Shown: in pieces, positions 10,587-22,924 of the stretch
Layout of the letters: each line of letters begins with the position of its first letter
How positions within the stretch are numbered: the stretch's first letter is position 1
The notes under the pieces: model-generated
The model's database searches: none
Seen by the model: only the letters and a program-made list of their open reading frames with translations
What the model was told of the DNA's origin: nothing
Assembly (NCBI RefSeq): GCF_009828025.1
Contig: NZ_WTYA01000009.1
Coordinates: 1 to 64,000, forward strand
Source: Qipengyuania algicida
GTDB taxonomy: Bacteria; Pseudomonadota; Alphaproteobacteria; Sphingomonadales; Sphingomonadaceae
Length of the DNA: 64,000 nucleotides
Direction: 5' to 3'
Position numbers and translations under genes: made by a program

Positions 10587-11615
10587 ATGGGTCGCGCGCC
10601 GAGCGGAAGACCGACGAGTTTCGATATCGCCTATCGGGCCGGGGTGTCCCAGCCCACCGTCAGCCGCGCGCTGCGCGGGGATCGCTCGGTCAGTCAGGCG
10701 ACTCGCGAGAAGATCGAGGCGATCGCGCGCGAACTCAACTACATCGTGGACCGCAACGCCTCTTCGCTCCGTTCGCAGCGCACCGATACCATCGCCTTGC
10801 TGTTCTTCGAGGATGGGGCCGACGACAACCTCATCAATCCCTTCTTCCTCGCGATGCTGGGTTCGATCACGCGGGCCTGTGCCAATCATGGCCTCGACCT
10901 GCTGATCTCGTTCCAGCGGCTGGAGGACAACTGGCACGTTCGTTACCAGGATTCCAAGCGCGCCGACGGGCTGATCCTGCTGGGATATGGCGACTACGCG
11001 CTCTATGCCAAGCGGATCGAACAATTGCTCGAACAAGGCACGCATTTCGCGCGCTGGGGATCGGTCAGCAGCGATACGAGCGGCCAGACCGTGGGCTCGG
11101 ACAATCTGGGCGCCGGGCGGCTCGTGGGCGAACATCTGCTGGCCATCGGACGCCGCAAGATCGCCTTTCTCGGCCATGCCGACGAGAGCTATCCCGAATT
11201 CGCCCATCGCTATGACGGCATGTGCGATGCGCTGCGCGAGGCTGGCGTCGAACCCGATCGCGCGCTGCAATACGATGCTTTGACCAGCGAGGAGGCTGGC
11301 TATCGCGCGGCCAGCGCGCTGATCGCCAGCAGGCGGCCGTTCGATGCGGTCTTCGCCGCCAGCGACCTGATTGCCATCGGTGCCTTGCGCGCTCTGGCCG
11401 ATGCCGGGCGCAGCGTGCCGGGAGATGTCGCGGTGGTTGGCTTCGACAATATCCCCTCTGCCAGCCTGACGAACCCGCCGCTGACCACCATCCAGCAGGA
11501 TCTGTCCGGCGCCGGAGAGCGGCTGGTCGAAACGCTGCTGGCACAGATCGAGGGGCGCGAGCCACCGCCCTCGCGCTTGCCGACCAAGCTGATCCTGCGC
11601 GCCAGCACGCAGTAG
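10587..11615 (+). CDS. LacI-family transcriptional regulator of the sugar locus
   Basis: 342 residues. The N-terminal helix-turn-helix and hinge helix occupy about residues 8-62 (FDIAYRAGVSQPTVSRALRG, then SSLRSQRT). The rest is a periplasmic-binding-protein-like sugar sensor (for example AAGYRAASALIASRRPFDAV and PGDVAVVGFDN). The ATG follows GGGGAGTAAGTC. It is divergent from the TonB receptor and directly upstream of the transporter operon, so it probably represses both arms until an inducing sugar binds. The inducer is not known. Confidence 0.92.
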   Translation: MGRAPSGRPTSFDIAYRAGVSQPTVSRALRGDRSVSQATREKIEAIARELNYIVDRNASSLRSQRTDTIALLFFEDGADDNLINPFFLAMLGSITRACANHGLDLLISFQRLEDNWHVRYQDSKRADGLILLGYGDYALYAKRIEQLLEQGTHFARWGSVSSDTSGQTVGSDNLGAGRLVGEHLLAIGRRKIAFLGHADESYPEFAHRYDGMCDALREAGVEPDRALQYDALTSEEAGYRAASALIASRRPFDAVFAASDLIAIGALRALADAGRSVPGDVAVVGFDNIPSASLTNPPLTTIQQDLSGAGERLVETLLAQIEGREPPPSRLPTKLILRASTQ

Positions 11616-11623
11616 CGTGTTCA

Positions 11624-11633
11624 CATTCGTATG
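11624..11633. promoter_or_regulatory. Candidate LacI-family operator, transporter side
   Basis: CATTCGTATG differs at one base from the perfect palindrome at 10449. It lies just after the lacI stop and 87 bases upstream of the MFS start codon, a sensible place for a repressor of the rightward operon. Confidence 0.4.
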
Positions 11634-11663
11634 CAGCTTGCGGCGGGCAGGGGGCCGTGCAAG

Positions 11664-11694
11664 CGTAGCGCCCTGATGCGAAACCGGCGCTACG
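11664..11694 (+). other. 9-bp perfect inverted repeat between lacI and the MFS gene
   Basis: CGTAGCGCC (11664-11672) pairs fully with GGCGCTACG (11686-11694) around a 13-base loop. No U-tract follows, so it is either a weak terminator for lacI or a stable stem in the leader of the transporter mRNA, 26 bases before the start codon. Confidence 0.45.
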
Positions 11695-11720
11695 ACCGGC
11701 CCGCAAGCGAGAGGAAATGC

Positions 11721-13268
11721 ATGGAGCAGGCGTACACCGGCAGGGCGAATGGCGCAGTGGCGCATGGCGAAAAGCCGCGTCTCGGCTTTTGGGCGCTGTT
11801 CAACATGAGCTTTGGCTTCTTCGGCATCCAGATCGGCTTCGCGCTGCAGAATTCGAACATGAGCCGCGTGTTCCAGACGCTCGGCGCGAGCCTGGACACC
11901 TTGCCGGTGTTGTGGATCGCCGCGCCGCTCACCGGGCTGATCGTGCAGCCGATCATCGGGCATCTGTCCGACCGCACCTGGGGGCGACTGGGGCGGCGGC
12001 GACCGTATTTCCTGACCGGCGCAATATTGGCCGCAACCGCGCTGTTCCTGATCCCCGAGGCACCCGGCTTCGGCGCGCCGCTGCTGTTCGCCGCAGCAAT
12101 GCTGTGGCTGCTCGATGCCTCGCTCAATATCTCGATGGAGCCGTTCCGTGCCTTTGTCGGCGATATGCTGCGCACCGATCAGCACGCGGCGGGCTATGCG
12201 GTGCAGACCGCTTTCATCGGCGCAGGCGCGGTGGTGGGATCGATTTTCCCCTGGCTGCTCGACCAATATGGCGTCGCTAACGTCGCATCAGGCGGCGGGA
12301 TCCCCGATACTGTTCGCTACAGCTTCTGGGCGGGCGGGGCTGCCTTGCTCGTCGCGGTGCTGTGGACGGTGCTGACCACGCGCGAATACAGTCCCGAACA
12401 GCAAGCCGCTTTCGCGCAGAGCGCAGTCGCTACCCCGCAGGCCGAACATCAGGCCGCCCCGCTGGCATCCAAATCCTATCTGTCGAGCATCCTGTGGATC
12501 GCCGCGGGCATCATTGTCGTCCTGCTGGTGGAGCCGTTTCAGCTCAAGATCGAGATCGAATTCCTTGGTGCAATGCTGATCGTATACGGCGCGCTCAGCG
12601 CGATCGCGATCTTCATGGCGCGGCAGGGGCGTGGCGCGAACATGCTCTCCAGCATCGTCGGCGATTTTTCCGGGATGCCGCCGGTAATGAAGCGGCTCGC
12701 GCTGGTGCAGTTCTTCAGCTGGTCTTCGCTGTTCATCATGTGGATCTATTCCGGGCCGATCGTGTCGCAATATTTCTTCGGTAGCACCGATACCGCCAGC
12801 CAGGCCTATAATGACGGGGCCAATTGGTGGAGCCTGATCTACACGATCGAGAACGCGGTTGCCGCCGTCGCGGCGCTGGCCGTGCTGCCGTGGCTGTCGC
12901 GCAAGATCGGACAGGTCGGCACGCATATGGTGGCGCTGCTGTGCGGAGCGGCTGGCTTCCTCGGCTATTTCGCCCTGCGCGATCCGAACCTGCTGATCGT
13001 TTGCGAGATCCTGAAGGGCATCGCCTGGGCCAGTATCCTGGCCATGCCCTATGCGATCCTGGCCAGCAATCTGCCGCAGGCCAAGCTTGGCGTTTACATG
13101 GGGCTGTTCAACATCTTCATCGTCGTGCCGCAGTTGCTTGTGGCGACGGTGATGGGGTCGATCATGGAGGCGTTCTTCCCGACCCAGCCGATCTGGACGA
13201 TGCTGTTCGCCGCCGGGTCATGGATCATCGCTGCGCTGGCGATGCTGCGGGTCAGGGCGGCGCTGTGA
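11721..13268 (+). CDS. MFS sugar:cation symporter, SLC45/sucrose-transporter-like
   Basis: 515 residues with about 12 hydrophobic segments. The loop GHLSDRTWGRLGRRRPY, after the second membrane segment, has the GRRRP signature of plant and animal sucrose transporters and their bacterial relatives. It should carry sucrose, maltose or maltooligosaccharides across the inner membrane with protons. I chose the ATG at 11721 because of the GAGAGGAAATGC ribosome site; the upstream in-frame extension is not hydrophobic. The stop overlaps the GTG start of the ROK kinase (13265-13268, GTGA). It opens the rightward operon. Confidence 0.88.
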   Translation: MEQAYTGRANGAVAHGEKPRLGFWALFNMSFGFFGIQIGFALQNSNMSRVFQTLGASLDTLPVLWIAAPLTGLIVQPIIGHLSDRTWGRLGRRRPYFLTGAILAATALFLIPEAPGFGAPLLFAAAMLWLLDASLNISMEPFRAFVGDMLRTDQHAAGYAVQTAFIGAGAVVGSIFPWLLDQYGVANVASGGGIPDTVRYSFWAGGAALLVAVLWTVLTTREYSPEQQAAFAQSAVATPQAEHQAAPLASKSYLSSILWIAAGIIVVLLVEPFQLKIEIEFLGAMLIVYGALSAIAIFMARQGRGANMLSSIVGDFSGMPPVMKRLALVQFFSWSSLFIMWIYSGPIVSQYFFGSTDTASQAYNDGANWWSLIYTIENAVAAVAALAVLPWLSRKIGQVGTHMVALLCGAAGFLGYFALRDPNLLIVCEILKGIAWASILAMPYAILASNLPQAKLGVYMGLFNIFIVVPQLLVATVMGSIMEAFFPTQPIWTMLFAAGSWIIAALAMLRVRAAL

Positions 13269-14155
13269 CTGGCGCCTTGATCGGTGCGATCGAGGCGGGG
13301 GGAACCAAATTCGTCCTCGCACTGTCCGATGCAGACGGCACGCTGATCGAGCGCGGACGGATCGCGACCCGTTCGGGGCATGAAACGCTGGCCGAAGCGC
13401 GCGATTGGTTCGCCGCCGCGGCTGAGCGGCACGGATCGATCGGTGCGTTCGGCATCGCCAGCTTCGGGCCGATCGGGATCAATCCGGACAGCGCGGACTA
13501 TGGCGTCTATCTCTCCACCGTGAAGCCCGGCTGGCACCGCACCAGCCTTGCCGAAGCACTGGCCCCGTTTGCAGCACCAATGGCCGTGCAGAGCGATGTC
13601 AACGGCGCGGCATTGGCCGAGACACTGCACGGCGCGGGGCGCGGCCATCAGGTCGTCGCCTATACCACCGTGGGCACGGGAATTGGGTCCGGCGTGGTCA
13701 ATCGCGGGGCGATCATGGGCGGGATCAGCCATTACGAAACGGGGCATATCCATGTGCCGCAAGATCCCGCCATCGATCCGTTCGCGGGCGTCTGCACCTA
13801 TCACGGCAATTGCTGCGAAGGGCTGGCCAGCGGTCCGGCGATCATGGCGCGCTGGGGGCACGATTTGTCCGGGGCAAGCGAACAGCAGATCGCGCTGATC
13901 GCCGGCTATCTGGCGCATCTCTCGGTCGCGCTGATCTCCTTGCACCGGCCCGACCGACTGATTTTCGGCGGCGGTGTCATGCAGGCGGCAGGTGTGCTTG
14001 ATAGCCTGCGCCAGCAGACCCGTGCGATCGTCGCGGGATATCTGCCTGAATGGGATGCCGATCTGTCCGAACGTATCGTCGCGCCTGAGCTGGGCCATGA
14101 CGCCGGGATCATCGGCGCGATCGAGCTGGGGCGGTGCAAACTCACAGGGGGGTAG
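13265..14155 (+). CDS. ROK-family fructokinase
   Basis: 296 residues, a little over the usual ROK kinase length. ATP-dependent phosphorylation of fructose (or another hexose). Visible: the phosphate loop IEAGGTKF (9-16), catalytic D111 in SDVNGAAL, GTGIGSG (138-144), and the zinc site H161 with C177, H180 and C183 in CTYHGNCCEG. The C-x-x-H-x-x-C form matches ROK fructokinases rather than glucokinases. Start is GTG, overlapping the symporter stop. It sits with a beta-fructosidase, so it probably traps the fructose that enzyme releases. Confidence 0.9.
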   Translation: MTGALIGAIEAGGTKFVLALSDADGTLIERGRIATRSGHETLAEARDWFAAAAERHGSIGAFGIASFGPIGINPDSADYGVYLSTVKPGWHRTSLAEALAPFAAPMAVQSDVNGAALAETLHGAGRGHQVVAYTTVGTGIGSGVVNRGAIMGGISHYETGHIHVPQDPAIDPFAGVCTYHGNCCEGLASGPAIMARWGHDLSGASEQQIALIAGYLAHLSVALISLHRPDRLIFGGGVMQAAGVLDSLRQQTRAIVAGYLPEWDADLSERIVAPELGHDAGIIGAIELGRCKLTGG

Positions 14156-14157
14156 TG

Positions 14158-15477
14158 ATGGGCAGGACATGGAGCTGGGCACTGGTTGCCGCGCTTTCGG
14201 GGTTTCTCTTCGGGTTCGACACGGCGGTCATCTCGGGCGCTGAACAGGCAGTGCAGCGCACCTGGCAGATGTCGGATGCCTTGCACGGCCTCGCCATTTC
14301 GGCGGCCTTGTGGGGGACCGTGGTCGGCGCGCTCGGCGGTGGCTGGCCGACCGATCGCTGGGGCCGCAAGCGCACGCTGTTCTGGATCGGTGTGCTTTAT
14401 GCAGTTTCCGCCTTGGGTTCGGCACTGGCGTGGGACCCGGCCAGCTTCATGGCCTTCCGCTTCATCGGCGGGCTTGGCGTCGGGGCCAGCTCGATCGCGG
14501 CGCCCGCCTATATCGCCGAGATCGCCCCTCGCGAGCAGCGCGGCCGGCTGGTGGCTTTGTTCCAGACCATGATCGTCACCGGCATATTGGTCGCATTCGG
14601 GTCGAACTATCTTCTCGGCGGCGTGGGCCAAGACGCCTGGCGCTGGATGCTGGGGGCCGAAGCGCTTCCGGCGCTTGCCTATCTCGGCGCGACGCTCTCC
14701 ATTCCTGAAAGCCCGCGCTGGCTGGTGGTGCACGAACAACGCGAGGAGGAGGCTCGACGGATTCTGGCGGTGATCAACCCGGACACGGTCGATGTTACTC
14801 TGTGCGCGATCGAGGCCGAGGCAGCACAGGATGCGCGCAGCATGAGCTGGGGCCGGTTCTTCGCCGGTGATCTGCGCCGACCGATCATGCTGGCGATGCT
14901 GATCGCGTTCTTCAACCAACTGTCGGGTATCAATGCGATCATTTATTTCGCCCCGCGGATCTTCGAGCTTTCGGGCGCGGGCACTTCGGTCGCGCTGCTG
15001 GCGACGGTCGGGATCGGGGCGATCAACCTTGTGTTCACGCTGATCGGCCTGCTGTTGATCGACCGCGCCGGGCGCAAGGCGCTGATGTATGTCGGCAGCA
15101 TCGGCTATATCGTCTCGCTGGGAATGACCGCGTGGGGCTTTGCCAGCGGACAATTCGCGCTGGTGCTGCCGTTCATCCTTGCCTTCATCGCTGCCCATGC
15201 CATCGGGCAGGGCGCGGTGATCTGGGTCTATATCTCCGAGATATTCCCCAGCGCCGCGCGGGCCAAGGGGCAAAGCCTTGGCTCTGGCACGCATTGGGTG
15301 TGCGCGGCTGCGCTGACCATGGTCATGCCGGTGCTTCTGGCGCGGCTGGCACCGGTCGCGGTGTTCGCCTTCTTCGCCGGGATGATGGTGCTGCAGCTGA
15401 TCTGGGTGCGCTTCGCCATGGTGGAGACGCGCGGCCGGTCGCTGGAGGATGTCGCAGCCGGGATGGTCCGCGCATGA
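14158..15477 (+). CDS. MFS sugar porter (XylE/GLUT-like)
   Basis: 439 residues, 12 membrane segments. Sugar-porter motifs are intact: FLFGFDTAVISGAEQ in segment 1, DRWGRKR after segment 2, PESPRWL before the central loop, NQLSGINAIIYF in segment 7 and DRAGRKAL later. It imports a monosaccharide, probably fructose or glucose, with protons. It starts two bases after the ROK stop with GGGGGG upstream, and its stop overlaps the start of the GH32 gene (15474-15477, ATGA). Two permeases in one operon suggest one for oligosaccharides and one for monosaccharides. Confidence 0.9.
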   Translation: MGRTWSWALVAALSGFLFGFDTAVISGAEQAVQRTWQMSDALHGLAISAALWGTVVGALGGGWPTDRWGRKRTLFWIGVLYAVSALGSALAWDPASFMAFRFIGGLGVGASSIAAPAYIAEIAPREQRGRLVALFQTMIVTGILVAFGSNYLLGGVGQDAWRWMLGAEALPALAYLGATLSIPESPRWLVVHEQREEEARRILAVINPDTVDVTLCAIEAEAAQDARSMSWGRFFAGDLRRPIMLAMLIAFFNQLSGINAIIYFAPRIFELSGAGTSVALLATVGIGAINLVFTLIGLLLIDRAGRKALMYVGSIGYIVSLGMTAWGFASGQFALVLPFILAFIAAHAIGQGAVIWVYISEIFPSAARAKGQSLGSGTHWVCAAALTMVMPVLLARLAPVAVFAFFAGMMVLQLIWVRFAMVETRGRSLEDVAAGMVRA

Positions 15478-17015
15478 CCCGCCTGGCAGCCTTCGTCACC
15501 GGGCTTCTCGCCAGCGCCGCACTGGGCGCTTGCGCGGTTACGCCGCCGCCTGCAACCGTGCCGCCGTCCGACCCGCTGCGGCCGCTGTGGCATTACACCC
15601 CGCCCAGCGGCTGGATGAATGACCCCAATGGGATGGTGAAGCAGGGCGATACCTGGCAGCTGTTCTATCAGTATTATCCGCAGGACACCGTCTGGGGCCC
15701 GATGCATTGGGGTCATGCGACCAGTACCGATCTCGTCCGCTGGACGACCCGCCCGGTCGCGCTCGCTCCGGGGCCGGAAGGCTATATCTTTTCCGGCAGT
15801 GCCGTGATCGACCGCAATGACACCGCCGGTTTCGGCAAGGGCGCGCTGGTGGCGATTTACACCATCCACGATCCCGTCCGCGCCAAGGCCGAAACGCGCG
15901 ACCATGAAAGCCAGGGACTTGCCTACAGTCTCGATGGCGGGATGACCTTTACGAAATACGCTGGCAATCCGGTGCTGCCCAACCCCGGCGGGCGGCAGGA
16001 TTTCCGCGACCCATCGGTGTTTCGCGACGAGGCGCGTGGGCAATGGGTCATGGCGCTTTCGGTGGGCGATCACGCCGAATTCTATGCCTCGCACGATTTG
16101 AAGCACTGGCGTTTCCTCTCGGCTTTCGGTGCAGGTGTCGGCGCGCATGGCGGGGTCTGGGAATGCCCCAATCTTTTCCCGATCCGTGACGTGCAAACGG
16201 GACGCGATCGCTGGGTGCTGATCCAGAACCTCAACCCCGGTGGCCCGCAGGGCGGGTCCGGTACGCAATATTTCGTCGGGGATTGGGACGGCACCCGCTT
16301 CACGCTGGACCCCGAATTCGCGCAGCGGATCGCGCATGACGGACCCGCCTGGCTCGACGCCGGGCCGGACGATTACGCCGGCGTAACCTGGAATGGCGCG
16401 CCGGACGGCCGCCGGGTGTTCATGGGCTGGATGTCGAACTGGCTTTACGCGCAAGAGGTGCCGACGAAGCGCTGGCGCAGCGCCATGACCGCCCCACGCG
16501 ATCTGACGTTGAGCGGTATCGAACTGAGGCAAACGCCCTCGCGCGAGATTGCGTCGCTGCGCGGTCCGCGCCTGCCCATCACGCTGTCCGGTGATGGCGG
16601 ACGACTGCCGCACGGACTGCTGCCCTCGGCCGACATCGAACTCACCTTCGCCACCCCGCCGGGTAGCAGCTTTGCACTCGAGCTGCGCAACAAGGAAGGT
16701 GAAAGGCTGGTGGCCGGGCTCGACGCGCAAGGCTGGTATATCGACCGCAGGAATGCCGGGCGCTCCGATTTCCACGATGGGTTTGCCGCCATCCACCGCG
16801 CGCCGCGGCGGCGCGACACGCGTGTGACCAAAGTGCGCCTGTTGATCGATCGCACTTCGATCGAATTGTTCGCCGATGACGGCGCGACGGTGATGACCGA
16901 GATATTCTTTCCCACCAGTGATTTTACCGAGGGCTCGATAGTCGGTCGGGGCGGGGCGCGTCTGCGCGACCGTGCTGCCTGGCCGCTTGCCCGTAACGAG
17001 GACCCGATCCAATGA
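15474..17015 (+). CDS. GH32 beta-fructosidase lipoprotein (invertase/levanase/inulinase type)
   Basis: 513 residues, releasing fructose from sucrose or fructans. The N-terminus is a lipoprotein signal with lipobox LGAC (C20), so the enzyme is membrane-anchored in the periplasm or at the surface. All three catalytic residues of the five-bladed propeller are present: nucleophile D50 in WMNDPNG, stabiliser D179 in FRDPS and acid/base E230 in WECPN. A C-terminal beta-sandwich follows from about residue 350. The start and stop both overlap neighbours by four bases. Whether sucrose or polymeric fructan is preferred cannot be told from sequence. Confidence 0.93.
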   Translation: MTRLAAFVTGLLASAALGACAVTPPPATVPPSDPLRPLWHYTPPSGWMNDPNGMVKQGDTWQLFYQYYPQDTVWGPMHWGHATSTDLVRWTTRPVALAPGPEGYIFSGSAVIDRNDTAGFGKGALVAIYTIHDPVRAKAETRDHESQGLAYSLDGGMTFTKYAGNPVLPNPGGRQDFRDPSVFRDEARGQWVMALSVGDHAEFYASHDLKHWRFLSAFGAGVGAHGGVWECPNLFPIRDVQTGRDRWVLIQNLNPGGPQGGSGTQYFVGDWDGTRFTLDPEFAQRIAHDGPAWLDAGPDDYAGVTWNGAPDGRRVFMGWMSNWLYAQEVPTKRWRSAMTAPRDLTLSGIELRQTPSREIASLRGPRLPITLSGDGGRLPHGLLPSADIELTFATPPGSSFALELRNKEGERLVAGLDAQGWYIDRRNAGRSDFHDGFAAIHRAPRRRDTRVTKVRLLIDRTSIELFADDGATVMTEIFFPTSDFTEGSIVGRGGARLRDRAAWPLARNEDPIQ

Positions 17016-18475
17016 ACCGTAACACCCTACGCTATGCCGCCGCCGCGTTGGCACTCGCCACCAGCGCCTGCGCCTTCGGTCATGCCCCCGCCGTGGAGCC
17101 GGACAGCGTGTGGCAGCCGAGCCCGGAATCGACCATCCACCATCCCGCATGGTCGAAAGAGGGCGTGCTTTACCAGATCAACACCCGCCAGTTCACGCCG
17201 GAGGGCACTTTTCGCGCGGCGGAAAAGCAGTTGCCCCGGCTCAAGAAACTGGGCGTCAACATCCTTTGGCTGATGCCGATCCATCCCATCGGGGAAAAGA
17301 ACCGCAAGGGCACGCTGGGCAGCCCCTATTCGGTACAGGATTATCGCGCGGTCAATCCCCGGCTCGGCACGAAGGAGGATTTCAAGCACTTCGTCGACAC
17401 CGCCCATGCCATGGGTTTCCATGTCATCCTCGACTGGGTCGCCAACCACACCGCTTGGGACAACAAGCTCGCGAGCGAACATCCCGACTGGTACGAGAAG
17501 AACTGGAAGGGCGGGTTCACCCCGACCCCCTGGCTCGACTGGAGTGACATCATCGACCTCGACTGGTCGAAGCCCGGCGTGCGCAAATATATCGGGGAAT
17601 CGATGGAAATGTGGGTGCGCGACTATGGCGTGGATGGCTTCCGCGCCGATGTCGCGGGCTATGTCCCGCTCGATTTCTGGGACAAGGAGCGCAAGCGCCT
17701 GGAAGCGATCAAACCGGTCTTCATGCTCGCCGAATGGAAGACGCCCGAAATGACCCGCAACGCTTTCGACGCGGTCTATGCCTGGGAATGGCACAACACG
17801 ATGAAGGACATCGCGCAAGGGCGCGCCGACGCCAGCGCGCTCGATGGCTATTATGCAGAAGCCGAAAGTGCCTGGCCGCGCGCGGCGATGCGGCTGACCT
17901 ATGTCGCCAATCACGATTCCAACGCCTGGGAAGGCACGCAGTACGAGAATTTCGGCGATGCGTTGCCGGCGGTGATCGCGCTGTCCTTCACCGGCGAAGG
18001 CTTGCCGATGATCTACAACGGGCAGGAGGCATGCAACCACAAGCGGCTCGAATTCTTCGAAAAGGATCCGATCGACTGGAGTCAGGGCAAGGACTGCAAG
18101 CTCGGCGCGCTCTTCACCGACCTGATCGCCTTCCGCAAGGCCAACCCTGCGCTCGCCAACAACCCGTGGGGCGGACGGATGGGCAAGCTCGACAATGACC
18201 AGCCATCGCAATTGTTCTCGTGGATTCGCCATGTCGACGGCAACACGGTGGTCGGCCTGTTCAATTTGTCGCCCAAGCCGGTGACCGCGCATCTGACCGA
18301 TGCCCATGGGGCTGGTCGCTACAGTGAATTCGGCACTGGCAAGGAAGTGGTTCTGGCGTCGGGCAGCACAGTCAGCCTCCCGGCGTGGGGCTATCGCCTG
18401 CTCTCGGGCAATGGCGAAGAAAGTGGACCGCGGATCATGGGCGGGGCACCGGGAACCGCGGGCGCGCCTCGCTAG
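17012..18475 (+). CDS. GH13 alpha-amylase family enzyme, probable lipoprotein
   Basis: 487 residues. The short N-terminal signal ends TSAC (C20), a possible lipobox, so it may be lipid-anchored. The barrel begins at GVLYQINTRQF. The triad is D213 in GFRADVAG, E241 in MLAEWK and D302 in VANHDSN. The GFRAD/LAEW motifs and the short B domain differ from the amylase at 3909, so the two are not recent duplicates. It ends the rightward operon, with ATGA overlap to the GH32 gene. Likely substrate is maltooligosaccharide or a sucrose-related glucoside. The Gly/Pro-rich tail after about residue 465 is probably disordered. Confidence 0.9.
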   Translation: MNRNTLRYAAAALALATSACAFGHAPAVEPDSVWQPSPESTIHHPAWSKEGVLYQINTRQFTPEGTFRAAEKQLPRLKKLGVNILWLMPIHPIGEKNRKGTLGSPYSVQDYRAVNPRLGTKEDFKHFVDTAHAMGFHVILDWVANHTAWDNKLASEHPDWYEKNWKGGFTPTPWLDWSDIIDLDWSKPGVRKYIGESMEMWVRDYGVDGFRADVAGYVPLDFWDKERKRLEAIKPVFMLAEWKTPEMTRNAFDAVYAWEWHNTMKDIAQGRADASALDGYYAEAESAWPRAAMRLTYVANHDSNAWEGTQYENFGDALPAVIALSFTGEGLPMIYNGQEACNHKRLEFFEKDPIDWSQGKDCKLGALFTDLIAFRKANPALANNPWGGRMGKLDNDQPSQLFSWIRHVDGNTVVGLFNLSPKPVTAHLTDAHGAGRYSEFGTGKEVVLASGSTVSLPAWGYRLLSGNGEESGPRIMGGAPGTAGAPR

Positions 18476-18591: not shown

Positions 18592-21324
18592 ATGGCCGTC
18601 GCCCCCCTGCTCGAACGATTGCGCGAGCTGGCGCAGCACACCGCCCAAACGCCGCTGTACAATCCCGTCTTCCAGCTTAGCCATGAGCTGTCGCGCGAGC
18701 TGGAACGCGGCGAAATCGCGCTCGACGATATCGAGGCATGGGTCGGTGAGTTGTACGACGAAAGCCTGGGCGCGCGGGCGGCGCGGATCCGACGGCTGCT
18801 GGCCGAGCCCGCGCCCGACGCGGTCCCGCCGGAGGACTTCGCGATGTTTCGCGGGCGCTGGGAAAACCCGGTCCTGCACGCAGTGTTCACCGCGCATCCC
18901 ACCTTCCTGCTGAGCCCGGCGGAATATCGTCATATCGCCGAAAAGGCGCTGGGCGAGACACAAGATGGCTCCGCCCGGCCGGAAAGCCCGGAGATCACCC
19001 TGCCGTTCGAGCATGGCCGCGCGATGGCAGCTATCGCCAATGCACAACATGCGCGCGATCGCATCGTGTCCGGCCTGTGCGGGGAAGCGCGTGAGAAATG
19101 GCCGGAGGAATGGGCGGATTTTGCCCCGCTACCGTTCCGTTTTGCGACCTGGGTCGGTTACGACATGGACGGCCGTACCGACATCAAGTGGCACACTTCG
19201 ATCGGTTTTCGCCTGACCGAAAAGGCGATGCGGCTGGCAAGTTATGTCGAACAACTCGAAGCGATCGACGAGGCACATCCCTTGCTCGACACGCTGCGCC
19301 CGGCTGCCAAATATGCGCAGGCGCGTGCGGACGACTTCGCCGAAGACCTCAGCGAACCGGCGGCACTGTCGGCTGCTGCCAACCGCCTGACCGCTGACGA
19401 TCCGGCCAAGCTGCTGTCGCTGGCCCCGCTTATCGCGGCGCTCGAACAGGAAGCCGGTGAGACGGATGGAGGGCGGGCAATTGCGCTCAAGACGCTCGCC
19501 GCCGCCATGCGTGCCGACGGGTTGGGGATGGGCTGGGTCCATTTCCGCGTCAACGCCAAGCAATTGCACAATGCGCTGCGCCAGCATCTGGGTGAAAGCG
19601 AAAGCTTCGATATCGCCAGCAAGAGTGCGCTCGCGACACTGGCCCGCATGGTCGAGGAGGTCGAGCCGCGCCACGCCAATTTCGCCGCGCTGGCGATCGA
19701 AAGCTCGACCGCGGTGCGCCAGTTCCTCGCTATGGCGCAAATCCTCAAGCACATCGATGGCGACAGCCCGATCCGAATGTTGATCGCCGAATGCGAACAG
19801 CCTGCCACCGTGCTCGCAGCGCTGTACTTCTCGCGCCTGTTCGGGATCGAGGAGCGGGTCGATATCTCGCCCCTGTTCGAAACCGATGAGGCGCTCGAAC
19901 ATGGTGGGCGGCTGCTCGATTCGCTGCTCGCGGAAGACGTCTATCGCAGCTACGCCCGCAAGCGCGGACGGGTCGCGATCCAGACCGGTTTTTCCGACGC
20001 CGGGCGTTTCCTCGGACAGATTCCCGCAAGCCTTGCGATCGAGCGGCTTCAGGGGCGGCTCGCAGAAGCGATGGCGGCCAATGGTCTCGGTGATGTCGCA
20101 GCCCTTATCTTCGATACGCATGGCGAGGGTATGGGGCGCGGAGCCCATCCCGGCGGGTTCGGCGACCGGCTTGAATGGCCGCTCAGCCCATGGGCCCGGC
20201 GCCGCTTTTCCGGTGCGGGTATCCGGCTGGAACCCGAAGCGAGCTTTCAGGGTGGCGATGGTTACGTCTGGTTCGACACGCCCGAGATTGCATTTCGCAC
20301 ACTGTCGCGGATCGCGGCGGAAGCGCGGCGCGCACCTGTCACCGAGAAGGACCCTTTCTACCAGCGCACCGATCTCAGCCTCGATTTCTACCGCGCGATC
20401 AAGGATCACCAGCAGGATTATTTCGAGAGCCGGACTTATGCCCGCGCGGTGACAGCCTTCGGTCTCGGCCTGCTCAACACCACCGGCAGCCGCAAGTCGC
20501 GCCGTCAGTCCGATATTGCTTCGGACCGCGATATGCATTTGCGACAGATCCGCGCGATCCCGCATAACGCGATCCTCCAGCAGCTCGGCTATCCGGTGAA
20601 CATTATCGCCGGGATGGGCAGCGCAACTGCCGGTCAGTTCGAGGATATGGCAGGACTGCTGGCCGAGAGCCCGCGTGGACGCCAGATCGTGCGGCTGGTG
20701 CGCGCTTCCAACGAACTCGCCAGTATCAAGACGGTCGCCGCTTTCGGCGAGCTGTTCAATTCGGCCTATTGGGCAAGCCGCCCCTATCGCGGCACCGAAG
20801 ACCACATCGCCGGTGCCTGCGAGACGCTGGCCGACTATCTCATCGGGGATGATCGTGCGGGCACATTCCGCCGTCTTGCCTCGCGGCTCCGGGTCGATGC
20901 TCTCAAACTCCATCGCCTGCTGGCCCTTGTTCCCGACGAGACGCCGCCGTCAGACCGCGAGCACACAAGGCGGATCATCGGGGTGTTGCAAGCACTGCGG
21001 CTGACCTTGTTCATGCACATGCTGGTAAAGGCGGTCTCGATCCCCGCATTCAGCCGCGCCAATGATATCAGCCGTCACGACGTGCTCGAGATGATCTTTT
21101 CCTTGCGGACCGATGACGCGCTCAAGCAATTGCGCCGCGCCTTCCCGACCAGCTTCCCGGTGCTCGACGATTTCTCCATGTCCGAACCCGCTGACTATCC
21201 CGCTCCCGGGCGGCAGGGCTATGCGACGATCAGGGATGAATACATCGACCCGATCGAGCGCGCCTATCTGCTGAGCTTGAGGATATCGACGGCGGTGGCC
21301 AACCAGTTCGGCGCCCACGGTTAG
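18592..21324 (+). CDS. Phosphoenolpyruvate carboxylase homologue with altered active site
   Basis: 910 residues, the length of PEP carboxylase, which makes oxaloacetate from PEP and bicarbonate. The family fold is traceable: FTAHPT (99-104, with the catalytic His of E. coli H138), ISPLFETDEALEHG (425-438), and the segments matching SDSxKD and FHGRGG. But the aligned catalytic residues differ: E. coli K546 is R472 (GFSDAGRFLG), H579 is D508 and R581 is H510 (FDTHGEGMGRG), R396 is N321, and GGDRDGNP reads GYDMDGRT. The C-terminus ends GAHG rather than RNTG. R516 and D469 are kept. It has its own AAGGAG site and stands alone. The family call is safe; PEP carboxylase activity is not. Confidence 0.75.
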   Translation: MAVAPLLERLRELAQHTAQTPLYNPVFQLSHELSRELERGEIALDDIEAWVGELYDESLGARAARIRRLLAEPAPDAVPPEDFAMFRGRWENPVLHAVFTAHPTFLLSPAEYRHIAEKALGETQDGSARPESPEITLPFEHGRAMAAIANAQHARDRIVSGLCGEAREKWPEEWADFAPLPFRFATWVGYDMDGRTDIKWHTSIGFRLTEKAMRLASYVEQLEAIDEAHPLLDTLRPAAKYAQARADDFAEDLSEPAALSAAANRLTADDPAKLLSLAPLIAALEQEAGETDGGRAIALKTLAAAMRADGLGMGWVHFRVNAKQLHNALRQHLGESESFDIASKSALATLARMVEEVEPRHANFAALAIESSTAVRQFLAMAQILKHIDGDSPIRMLIAECEQPATVLAALYFSRLFGIEERVDISPLFETDEALEHGGRLLDSLLAEDVYRSYARKRGRVAIQTGFSDAGRFLGQIPASLAIERLQGRLAEAMAANGLGDVAALIFDTHGEGMGRGAHPGGFGDRLEWPLSPWARRRFSGAGIRLEPEASFQGGDGYVWFDTPEIAFRTLSRIAAEARRAPVTEKDPFYQRTDLSLDFYRAIKDHQQDYFESRTYARAVTAFGLGLLNTTGSRKSRRQSDIASDRDMHLRQIRAIPHNAILQQLGYPVNIIAGMGSATAGQFEDMAGLLAESPRGRQIVRLVRASNELASIKTVAAFGELFNSAYWASRPYRGTEDHIAGACETLADYLIGDDRAGTFRRLASRLRVDALKLHRLLALVPDETPPSDREHTRRIIGVLQALRLTLFMHMLVKAVSIPAFSRANDISRHDVLEMIFSLRTDDALKQLRRAFPTSFPVLDDFSMSEPADYPAPGRQGYATIRDEYIDPIERAYLLSLRISTAVANQFGAHG

Positions 21325-21418: not shown

Positions 21419-22924
21419 ATGACAGAAACGGCAACCGACTTCGACGTCCTGATCGTGGGCGCGGGCATTTCCGGTATCGGCATGGCGGCGCACATGACCG
21501 AGAAAGTGCCGGGGATGAGCTACGCGATCCTCGAAAGGCGAGAGAACCTCGGCGGTACCTGGGACCTGTTCCGCTATCCCGGAATTCGTTCGGACAGCGA
21601 CATGCACACGCTGGGCTTCGATTTCGAGCCCTGGCGGCACGAGAAGTCGATCGCCGATGGCCCTTCGATCCTCGAATATCTCGACCAGATCGCCGACGAG
21701 CGCGGCATTCGCCAGCATATCCGTTTCGGCCACAAGGTCATTGCGGCAGACTTTCATTCCGCCCAGGCGCGTTGGCATGTCACCATCGAAGTTGCCGAGG
21801 GCGAGCGCAAGCATCTGACCGCCAACTGGCTGTATCTTGCATCGGGCTATTACGATTACGACGAACCCTTCGATCCCGGATTCGATTTCGGCGAATTCGA
21901 AGGCAAGGTGGTCCATCCGCAGTTCTGGCCCGAGGATCTCAACTATGCGGGCAAGCGCGTGGTGGTGATCGGCAGCGGCGCGACCGCAGTCACGATCGTG
22001 CCGTCGGTTGCCAAAAAGGCCGCCCATGTCACCATGCTCCAGCGCACGCCGACCTGGATGTTCTCGCGGCCCGCCAAGGACGGAATCGCCAATTTCCTGC
22101 GCAAGATCCTGCCCGAAAAGCTCGCCTACCGGATCACCCGGTGGAAGAACATCACCCTGCAGGACAAGGGCTTCAAACGCGCACGGGAAAAGCCGGAAAA
22201 GGTCGGCGAATTCCTGCACAAGCGGATTCGCAAGATCATGGGGAAGGATTTCGATCTGACCCCGTTCACACCGCCCTACAATCCGTGGGACCAGCGGCTG
22301 TGCCTTGTGCCGGACGATGATTTGTTCGAGGCGCTGCGTGGCGGCAAGGCGGATATCGTCACTGGCCAGATCGCCGCATTCGACAAAGGCGGCGTGACGC
22401 TGAAATCGGGCGACGAGCTGCCCGCTGATATCGTCGTCACTGCGACCGGGCTGAAACTTGCCGTAGCGGGCAAGATCGCGGTTAGCGTCGATGGGGCGCC
22501 GATCGATTTCGCCGAACATTTCTATTACAAGGGCTGCATGTTCTCCAATGTGCCGAACCTGTCGGTGGTGTTCGGCTATCTCAACGCGAGCTGGACCCTG
22601 CGGGCGGACATCAATTCCGACTACGTGTGCCGCGTGCTCAAGCTGATGCGCACCAAGGGAGTGGACATCGCCGTGCCGTTGCTCGCCGACGATCATGGGC
22701 TGGAAGAGGACGACATCTTCGATTTCTCCAGCGGCTATATCCAGCGTGGCAAGCATCTGATGCCGAAGAACGCGGTCGGCTATCCGTGGCGGCTCAACCA
22801 GGAATATGTGATCGATCGCAAGCGGATGCAGTCTGATCCGGTCGAGGATGGTATCCTGGCGTTGCGCAAGGCTCAGAGCGCGGCACCGGCTGCGGTGGCT
22901 CCCGACTCCACATTGGTCGCCTGA
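21419..22924 (+). CDS. FAD/NADPH monooxygenase, Baeyer-Villiger type
   Basis: 501 residues. An FAD Rossmann motif GAGISG (14-19) and an NADPH motif GSGATA (185-190) flank the Baeyer-Villiger fingerprint F-x-G-x-x-x-H-x-x-x-W-P at 160-171 (FEGKVVHPQFWP). The family inserts oxygen next to a ketone to give esters or lactones, or oxidises heteroatoms. GGTWDLFRYPGIRSDSDMH (45-63) is typical of the FAD-binding half. The ATG follows GGGAGAGAC. No pathway genes are adjacent, so the substrate is unknown. Confidence 0.9.
   Translation: MTETATDFDVLIVGAGISGIGMAAHMTEKVPGMSYAILERRENLGGTWDLFRYPGIRSDSDMHTLGFDFEPWRHEKSIADGPSILEYLDQIADERGIRQHIRFGHKVIAADFHSAQARWHVTIEVAEGERKHLTANWLYLASGYYDYDEPFDPGFDFGEFEGKVVHPQFWPEDLNYAGKRVVVIGSGATAVTIVPSVAKKAAHVTMLQRTPTWMFSRPAKDGIANFLRKILPEKLAYRITRWKNITLQDKGFKRAREKPEKVGEFLHKRIRKIMGKDFDLTPFTPPYNPWDQRLCLVPDDDLFEALRGGKADIVTGQIAAFDKGGVTLKSGDELPADIVVTATGLKLAVAGKIAVSVDGAPIDFAEHFYYKGCMFSNVPNLSVVFGYLNASWTLRADINSDYVCRVLKLMRTKGVDIAVPLLADDHGLEEDDIFDFSSGYIQRGKHLMPKNAVGYPWRLNQEYVIDRKRMQSDPVEDGILALRKAQSAAPAAVAPDSTLVA

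Follow-up and report, generated by a model that had tools for sequence, protein, structure and literature searches.

A stretch of 64,000 nucleotides from Qipengyuania algicida (the window) carries a divergent relative of phosphoenolpyruvate carboxylase (PEPC) which probably is an active, anaplerotic PEP carboxylase-like enzyme with a rebuilt pocket, belonging to a distinct and mainly alphaproteobacterial clade that would have displaced canonical PEPC. The protein is homologous to PEPC and shares its fold, its pocket residues are conserved across the clade, the gene is under purifying selection, it alternates with canonical PEPC among genomes and it is linked to genes of the Entner-Doudoroff pathway.

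Results and Discussion

The window encodes a full-length, remote homologue of PEPC

The gene under study is the following.

18592..21324, + strand: divergent PEPC-like coding sequence, 910 aa (ORF translation, Pfam, predicted-fold match)

In a Pfam scan the 910-aa protein scored 50.9 bits with PEPcase (PF00311), above the gathering cut-off of 22.4, the best stretch being residues 298-520; at E values up to 1 this was the sole match, and PF14010 was absent. With the NCBIfam PEPC equivalog it reached 52.8 bits, below the cut-off of 815. Among solved structures, E. coli and plant PEPCs were closest in sequence, at E values of about 2e-7 to 3e-7, and the phmmer alignment covers residues 335-522 only, while profile-profile comparison with canonical PEPC by hhalign extended over 653 columns (probability 99.8, E 1.5e-30, 17% identity); identity to canonical PEPC is 15-17%. 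An AlphaFold model built with 39 family members (mean pLDDT 88.8, pTM 0.89) matched maize PEPC 6mgi_A over residues 1-910, with Z 30.4 and rmsd 3.8 for 745 aligned residues at 16% identity, and E. coli PEPC 1jqn with Z 27.3 and rmsd 4.3, the PEPC fold extending over the whole chain. Foldseek of the same model gave E 2e-19, with TM-scores near 0.6 and rmsd above 8, which marks the protein as a remote PEPC relative. The window ORF is a true, full-length, remote PEPC homologue, and the alignments together with the fold match bear out the preliminary description of this gene as a PEPC homologue with altered catalytic residues. An antisense ORF of 594 aa lies opposite the gene (window 19129-20913, - strand), and similar shadow ORFs were seen in many relatives; we ascribe it to the high G+C and do not regard it as evidence of a gene.

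Pocket residues across the clade

Residue equivalences were taken from sequence and profile alignments (MAFFT on two sets, hhalign and phmmer) rather than from structure pairing. The first MAFFT set comprised the family, E. coli Ppc and alphaproteobacterial canonical PEPCs (46 divergent and 28 canonical rows). The second comprised 176 distinct divergent sequences no shorter than 850 aa together with the window row, which means that the window protein is counted twice among the 177 divergent rows, and 45 canonical sequences of at least 800 aa; before the length and identity filters there were 198 divergent and 46 canonical ORFs. The pocket features of the window protein, paired with E. coli numbering, are given below.

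18889..18906, + strand: TAHPTF, residues 100-105; H102 = H138 (alignment)
19150..19176, + strand: WVGYDMDGR, residues 187-195, altered GGDRDGNP region; W187 = W248 (alignment)
19546..19548, + strand: R319 = R396, retained (alignments)
19879..19881, + strand: E430 = E506 (alignment)
19981..20007, + strand: QTGFSDAGR, residues 464-472; Q464 = M538, D469 = D543, R472 = K546 (alignment)
20107..20151, + strand: rebuilt loop IFDTHGEGMGRGAHP, residues 506-520; D508 = H579, T509 = G580, H510 = R581, E512 = G583, R516 = R587 (alignments)
20491..20493, + strand: R634 = R699, retained, in a low-confidence loop of the model (alignment)
20551..20553, + strand: R654 = R713, retained (alignment)

All 177 divergent rows keep H138, W248, R396, L504, E506, D543, R587 and R699, and R713 is kept in 176 with one gap. 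Among these, we take E506 and D543 to be the metal ligands of E. coli PEPC, and R396, R699 and R713 to be the PEP arginines of the work on that enzyme. On the other hand, K546 is replaced by R, G580 by T and G583 by E in every divergent row, and the H579 position reads N in 94, D in 81 and S in 2, the R581 position H in 173 and G in 4, and the M538 position Q in 175 and E in 2. K546, H579, R581 and the HGRGG loop stand unchanged in all 45 canonical rows and are not shared by the divergent clade. A passage of PMC11832675 names H138, H579 and R587 as mattering for PEPC catalysis.

The preliminary description had K546, H579 and R581 replaced and H138, D543 and R587 retained, and both readings held: MAFFT on two sets, hhalign and phmmer concur in placing R472, D508 and H510 at the former positions, and the latter are H102, D469 and R516 (phmmer covers D469 and R516). 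Its altered GGDRDGNP motif was found again, as GYDMDGRTD in the window protein. Its reading of R396 as N did not survive, since R319 aligns there and is R in 177/177 divergent rows, with an invariant N321 two residues beyond; judged on these alignments, the earlier reading is an alignment slip. The retained E506, R699, R713, W248 and L504 and the loss of K773 and R832 (see below) were absent from that description.

Furthermore, of 726 columns occupied in the window protein and the E. coli protein alike, 56 reached at least 95% conservation in each of the two clades; 39 of them carry the same residue and 17 are fixed differently. Eight of these 17 fell among the 91 barrel-strand-end columns (p 4e-4), a face drawn from predicted strands. 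Since the substitutions are fixed or nearly so in 176 distinct sequences, they are not due to chance, and the pocket as aligned is a conserved alternative and not a product of decay. Two further PEPC-like types were also noticed (L144, the same gene as L143, in genome G170, and L145 in genome G070), whose scores are 90-121 bits for the canonical profile and 31-38 for the divergent one; they keep H138, R396, E506, D543, R699 and R713, and have the HGRGG loop deleted or changed.

C-terminus and aspartate site

Two features lie towards the end of the protein.

20896..20898, + strand: D769, at the R832 position, arginine lost (alignment)
21310..21321, + strand: C-terminal GAHG with conserved terminal glycine (C-termini of relatives)

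We assume that K773, R832 and N881 form the aspartate/malate allosteric site of canonical PEPC. In the divergent rows the R832 position is D in 173/177 and E in 3/177, the K773 position is mostly L, and N881 is not conserved, the alignment being poor at that end; the canonical site is thus not preserved. With K773 and R832 both replaced, aspartate and malate are not expected to inhibit through the canonical site, and the enzyme is predicted to be probably insensitive to aspartate. The RNTG tail, earlier described as gone, indeed reads GAHG in the window protein, but the terminal glycine of canonical PEPC is kept: it was present in 175/176 divergent proteins, 117 of which end in GAHG, and 45 canonical proteins end in RNSG (34) or RNTG (3) among other tails.

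Selection, phylogeny and spread

The dN/dS ratio of the window gene against five relatives was 0.13-0.22 (dN 0.18-0.24, dS 0.90-1.77), and purifying selection on the divergent gene is strong. A phylogeny against true PEPC, which the preliminary description had proposed, separated the two forms: on a FastTree phylogeny of 122 rows (76 divergent and 46 canonical) drawn from the larger sequence set, they stood on opposite sides of a single branch with support 100. Long branches meet on this tree, so the split is reliable and the deep order is not. The divergent clade was found in 46/61 genomes of the first search, own genome included, and none of the hits had internal stops. In a sample of 398 Pseudomonadota genomes, strong matches (>700 bits) were confined to 29 genomes, all in the window's class, Alphaproteobacteria; outside this class the divergent gene was seen on a plasmid record named Burkholderia pyrrocinia. 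The Methylobacterium bullatum copy groups with family f77 on the tree; it lies on plasmid 1 (L187 10001-12823), where the gene is unannotated in a 2.8-Mb record having a single annotated feature. The expectation that such genes are auto-annotated as ppc proved right for two of the four plasmid records with a relative, which say phosphoenolpyruvate carboxylase; of the other two, one says hypothetical protein and one is without annotation. The gene of Sphingobium sp. TomTYG74 is annotated as hypothetical.

Alternation with canonical PEPC

We examined 197 Sphingomonadales genomes at least 95% complete, in which the two forms were typed by bit score and confirmed by sequence only where fetched. 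PF00311 matches were present in 149, canonical in 50 (at least 651 bits) and divergent in 99 (40-71 bits), and not a single genome held both forms, against 25 expected (p 1e-19, shared descent ignored). Both forms occur within single genera: among the matches listed, genus g24 had one canonical and the rest divergent, and genus g227 two divergent and the rest canonical. Pyruvate carboxylase was over cut-off in 11/197 genomes, that is in 1 of 99 divergent, 1 of 50 canonical and 9 of the 48 with neither form. The other 39 of those 48 lacked pyruvate carboxylase as well, and two same-genus genomes (G004 and G780) belong to the 48; with both PEPC forms absent from 48/197, some genomes either do not need this step or carry it out by other means.

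A class sample of 240 genomes gave 31 confirmed and 5 unconfirmed divergent, 2 third-type, 29 canonical (one fragmented) and 173 without PEPC. Canonical PEPC was absent from all 31 confirmed divergent genomes (3.7 expected, p 0.019, shared descent ignored), and pyruvate carboxylase occurred in 0/31 confirmed divergent, 2/29 canonical and 31/173 PEPC-less genomes. One of the 50 canonical Sphingomonadales genomes, G809 (contig C4 133180-135827), has its ppc split into two overlapping pieces, the second match containing a stop; this may reflect a recent break of the gene or a fault of assembly.

The divergent gene is usually the sole PF00311 gene of its genome. In the own genome of the window, profile searches found no second PEPC, no pyruvate carboxylase over cut-off and no GTP-type PEP carboxykinase; an ATP-type PEP carboxykinase and edd are present, and an isocitrate lyase match of 108.8 bits is below cut-off and may represent another subfamily. 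In f77/g233, all five genomes pair the divergent form with a canonical-pocket PEPC having K773 and N881 replaced, so the divergent form is able to coexist with a PEPC, and G470, from another genus of f77, pairs such a K773/N881-replaced PEPC with a fully canonical second one. PMC3615186 describes such a pair in Methylosinus, a non-regulated serine-cycle Ppc1 and a regulated anaplerotic Ppc2; by that pattern, the divergent form in g233 would take the place of the regulated PEPC.

Gene context

The divergent gene follows, on the same strand, a LacI gene, two transporter genes, GH32 and GH13; the sugar-use locus at window 10587-18475 comprises the LacI regulator, two MFS-type transporters and the GH32 and GH13 genes. 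Its immediate neighbours are as follows.

15480..17015, + strand: GH32 gene, start taken as 15480, stop overlapping the GH13 start (ATGA)
17012..18475, + strand: GH13 (alpha-amylase family) gene, 116 bp upstream of the divergent coding sequence
21419..22924, + strand: flavin-dependent monooxygenase-like gene, downstream

The order GH13, divergent gene, monooxygenase, MoCF-domain gene recurred in 3/80 loci, all close relatives (L033-L035), and clustering of flank ORFs from 40 loci and the window returned no neighbour cluster in more than 8/41 loci, the gene itself being in 39 and antisense shadow ORFs in 31. A wider linkage was evident with Entner-Doudoroff genes: tblastn placed zwf or edd, or else glk together with eda, in the fetched flanks of 51/80 loci, Erythrobacter sp. 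NAP1 among them, and edd was within 10 kb in 41/84 divergent vs 2/48 canonical genomes, counting those with the best edd place listed. In the two canonical cases (L230, L231) zwf-(pgl)-edd-glk is followed by canonical ppc; in L162 zwf-edd-glk is followed by the divergent gene, and in L232-L234, L236, L237 and L247 by an eda-sized gene and then the divergent gene, eda being family-verified in L232 and, in another arrangement, L239. A zwf-edd tree built from 15 loci placed both canonical operons on a single branch next to ten divergent operons of the same family, which indicates one canonical/divergent exchange and not many.

Some neighbourhoods are of another kind. Oxalate genes, a CoA ligase and sucCD accompany the Phyllobacterium gene; on a Phyllobacterium zundukense plasmid (L185 7831-12790), the oxalate-use genes frc and oxlT and a CoA ligase gene are followed by sucC, sucD and the divergent gene, which abut or overlap one another, possibly an oxalate or glyoxylate pathway. 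RraA and a 2-hydroxyacid dehydrogenase accompany the Burkholderia pyrrocinia gene, and a 2-hydroxyacid dehydrogenase, an APH-type kinase, a second enolase and a FAH-type protein lie upstream on the Sphingobium sp. TomTYG74 plasmid (L184 5388-12763). Such neighbours suggest C2-C4 acid metabolism and would allow for a different substrate.

Likely function of the divergent enzyme

The kept metal ligands, histidine and arginines argue for an active enzyme, and the gene context argues that it does the job of canonical PEPC. Like PEPC, the enzyme would most likely turn PEP and bicarbonate into oxaloacetate and phosphate, with E430 and D469 coordinating a divalent metal, R319, R634 and R654 binding the PEP anions, and H102 and R516 presumably serving the carboxyl-transfer half. 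R472, D508 (or N), H510 and E512, newly arranged, may replace K546, H579, R581 and the glycine loop. We infer that aspartate and malate do not inhibit it through the canonical site and that it refills the citric acid cycle during Entner-Doudoroff sugar breakdown, in place of canonical PEPC. Against this reading stand the replacement of K546, H579, R581 and the glycine loop, and the 8/17 differently fixed positions at the barrel ends, which fit changed chemistry also. An ATP-type PEP carboxykinase is encoded in the own genome, 48/197 genomes manage without either PEPC, the operon exchange is one event, and the oxalate/sucCD, RraA/dehydrogenase and kinase/enolase neighbours would equally suit another C2-C4 acid reaction.

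The main rival reading is a new activity on the PEPC scaffold, with another enol or oxyacid (e.g. hydroxypyruvate, glyoxylate, pyruvate) or another second substrate, still tied to central carbon. The pocket positions fixed differently between the clades, the acid-related neighbours in the Phyllobacterium, Burkholderia and Sphingobium records, and the canonical-pocket PEPC coexisting in 5/5 f77/g233 genomes speak for it. Nevertheless we consider it less likely, as the kept H138, R396, E506, D543, R587, R699 and R713 are those of PEPC, no coexistence with canonical PEPC was seen in 197 Sphingomonadales or, for confirmed members, in 240 class genomes, and the divergent gene and canonical PEPC have an operon slot in common. 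The new activity raised in the preliminary description keeps a place, but judged by its gene context the enzyme more probably performs the usual conversion of PEP to oxaloacetate with a rebuilt pocket.

The pseudoenzyme also proposed there, a catalytically dead PEPC with a structural or regulatory role, could appeal to the replaced K546, H579 and R581, yet it is very improbable. Neither loss of the metal ligands or catalytic base nor relaxed constraint was found: the ligands, the catalytic histidine (H138) and 4/5 active-site arginines are conserved, and dN/dS is as low as given above. Being usually the sole PF00311 gene, it has no active partner to regulate, and its alternation with true PEPC among genomes, once in the same operon slot, also counters this idea. 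We thus rejected a pseudoenzyme or decaying gene on residue conservation and dN/dS. Least credible of all is that misaligned columns or sequencing errors created the pattern; at 15-17% identity single columns could be misplaced, as the earlier R396 was, but all alignments pair D469, R472, D508, H510 and R516 alike, 176 sequences show the same fixed motif loop, which recurs in independent genomes, and the first-search hits were all free of internal stops.

Comparison with known PEPCs

The divergent form resembles canonical (type 1) PEPC, such as E. coli Ppc and alphaproteobacterial ppc, in its whole-length fold, kept residues, C-terminal glycine and, in some genomes, operon slot. It differs in K546R, H579D/N, G580T, R581H, G583E, M538Q, the altered GGDRDGNP, the loss of K773 and R832, and its low identity. 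As several canonical features failed, we regard it as a separate PEPC-like clade of the PF00311 superfamily and not as ppc. With archaeal-type PEPC (PepcA, PF14010), compared by fold and profile, it shares a related barrel (3odm_D, Z 17.0, 469 residues), but 3odm_D has 526 residues and PF14010 gave no match. With the serine-cycle non-regulated PEPC it shares changes at K773 and N881, as far as an excerpt on Methylosinus Ppc1 goes (PMC3615186), and sucCD-like genes sometimes stand beside the divergent gene. However, that enzyme keeps the canonical pocket, both in the same excerpt and in the f77 serine-type proteins (L252-L257). Membership of serine-cycle PpcA in the clade, hinted at by the sucCD-like genes before the divergent gene, was rejected because the f77 serine-type PEPCs have the canonical pocket. 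The f44 sucC-like proteins scored 551 and 555, below the malate-CoA ligase cut-off of 604.

Among the titles and abstract openings listed from open-licence PubMed Central, none described the clade. Portions of several papers touch on related organisms. Roseobacter denitrificans extracts have PEPC activity, with ppc given as RD1_4248 (excerpt of PMC2749216), and Rhodospirillum centenum ppc is given as RC1_2446 (excerpt of PMC2890560); neither was counted for the divergent form. Two Erythrobacter genes stand in Table 1 of PMC3521007, and a Sphingomonas koreensis library was used in E. coli delta-ppc complementation, according to a part of PMC11535334 in which the divergent form is not named.

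If the enzyme carboxylates PEP, a second and fully conserved arrangement would be able to take the place of the textbook active-site residues K546, H579 and R581, and many sphingomonads would use for anaplerosis an enzyme expected to be free of aspartate feedback, which would help both studies of PEPC catalysis and metabolic engineering. Otherwise, a false ppc stands in many alphaproteobacterial genomes and models, which are then without a known C3 carboxylase during sugar growth; in that rather doubtful case the switch of about nine pocket residues would mark a widespread alphaproteobacterial class with a non-PEPC reaction, an unrecognised C4-acid route filed as ppc.
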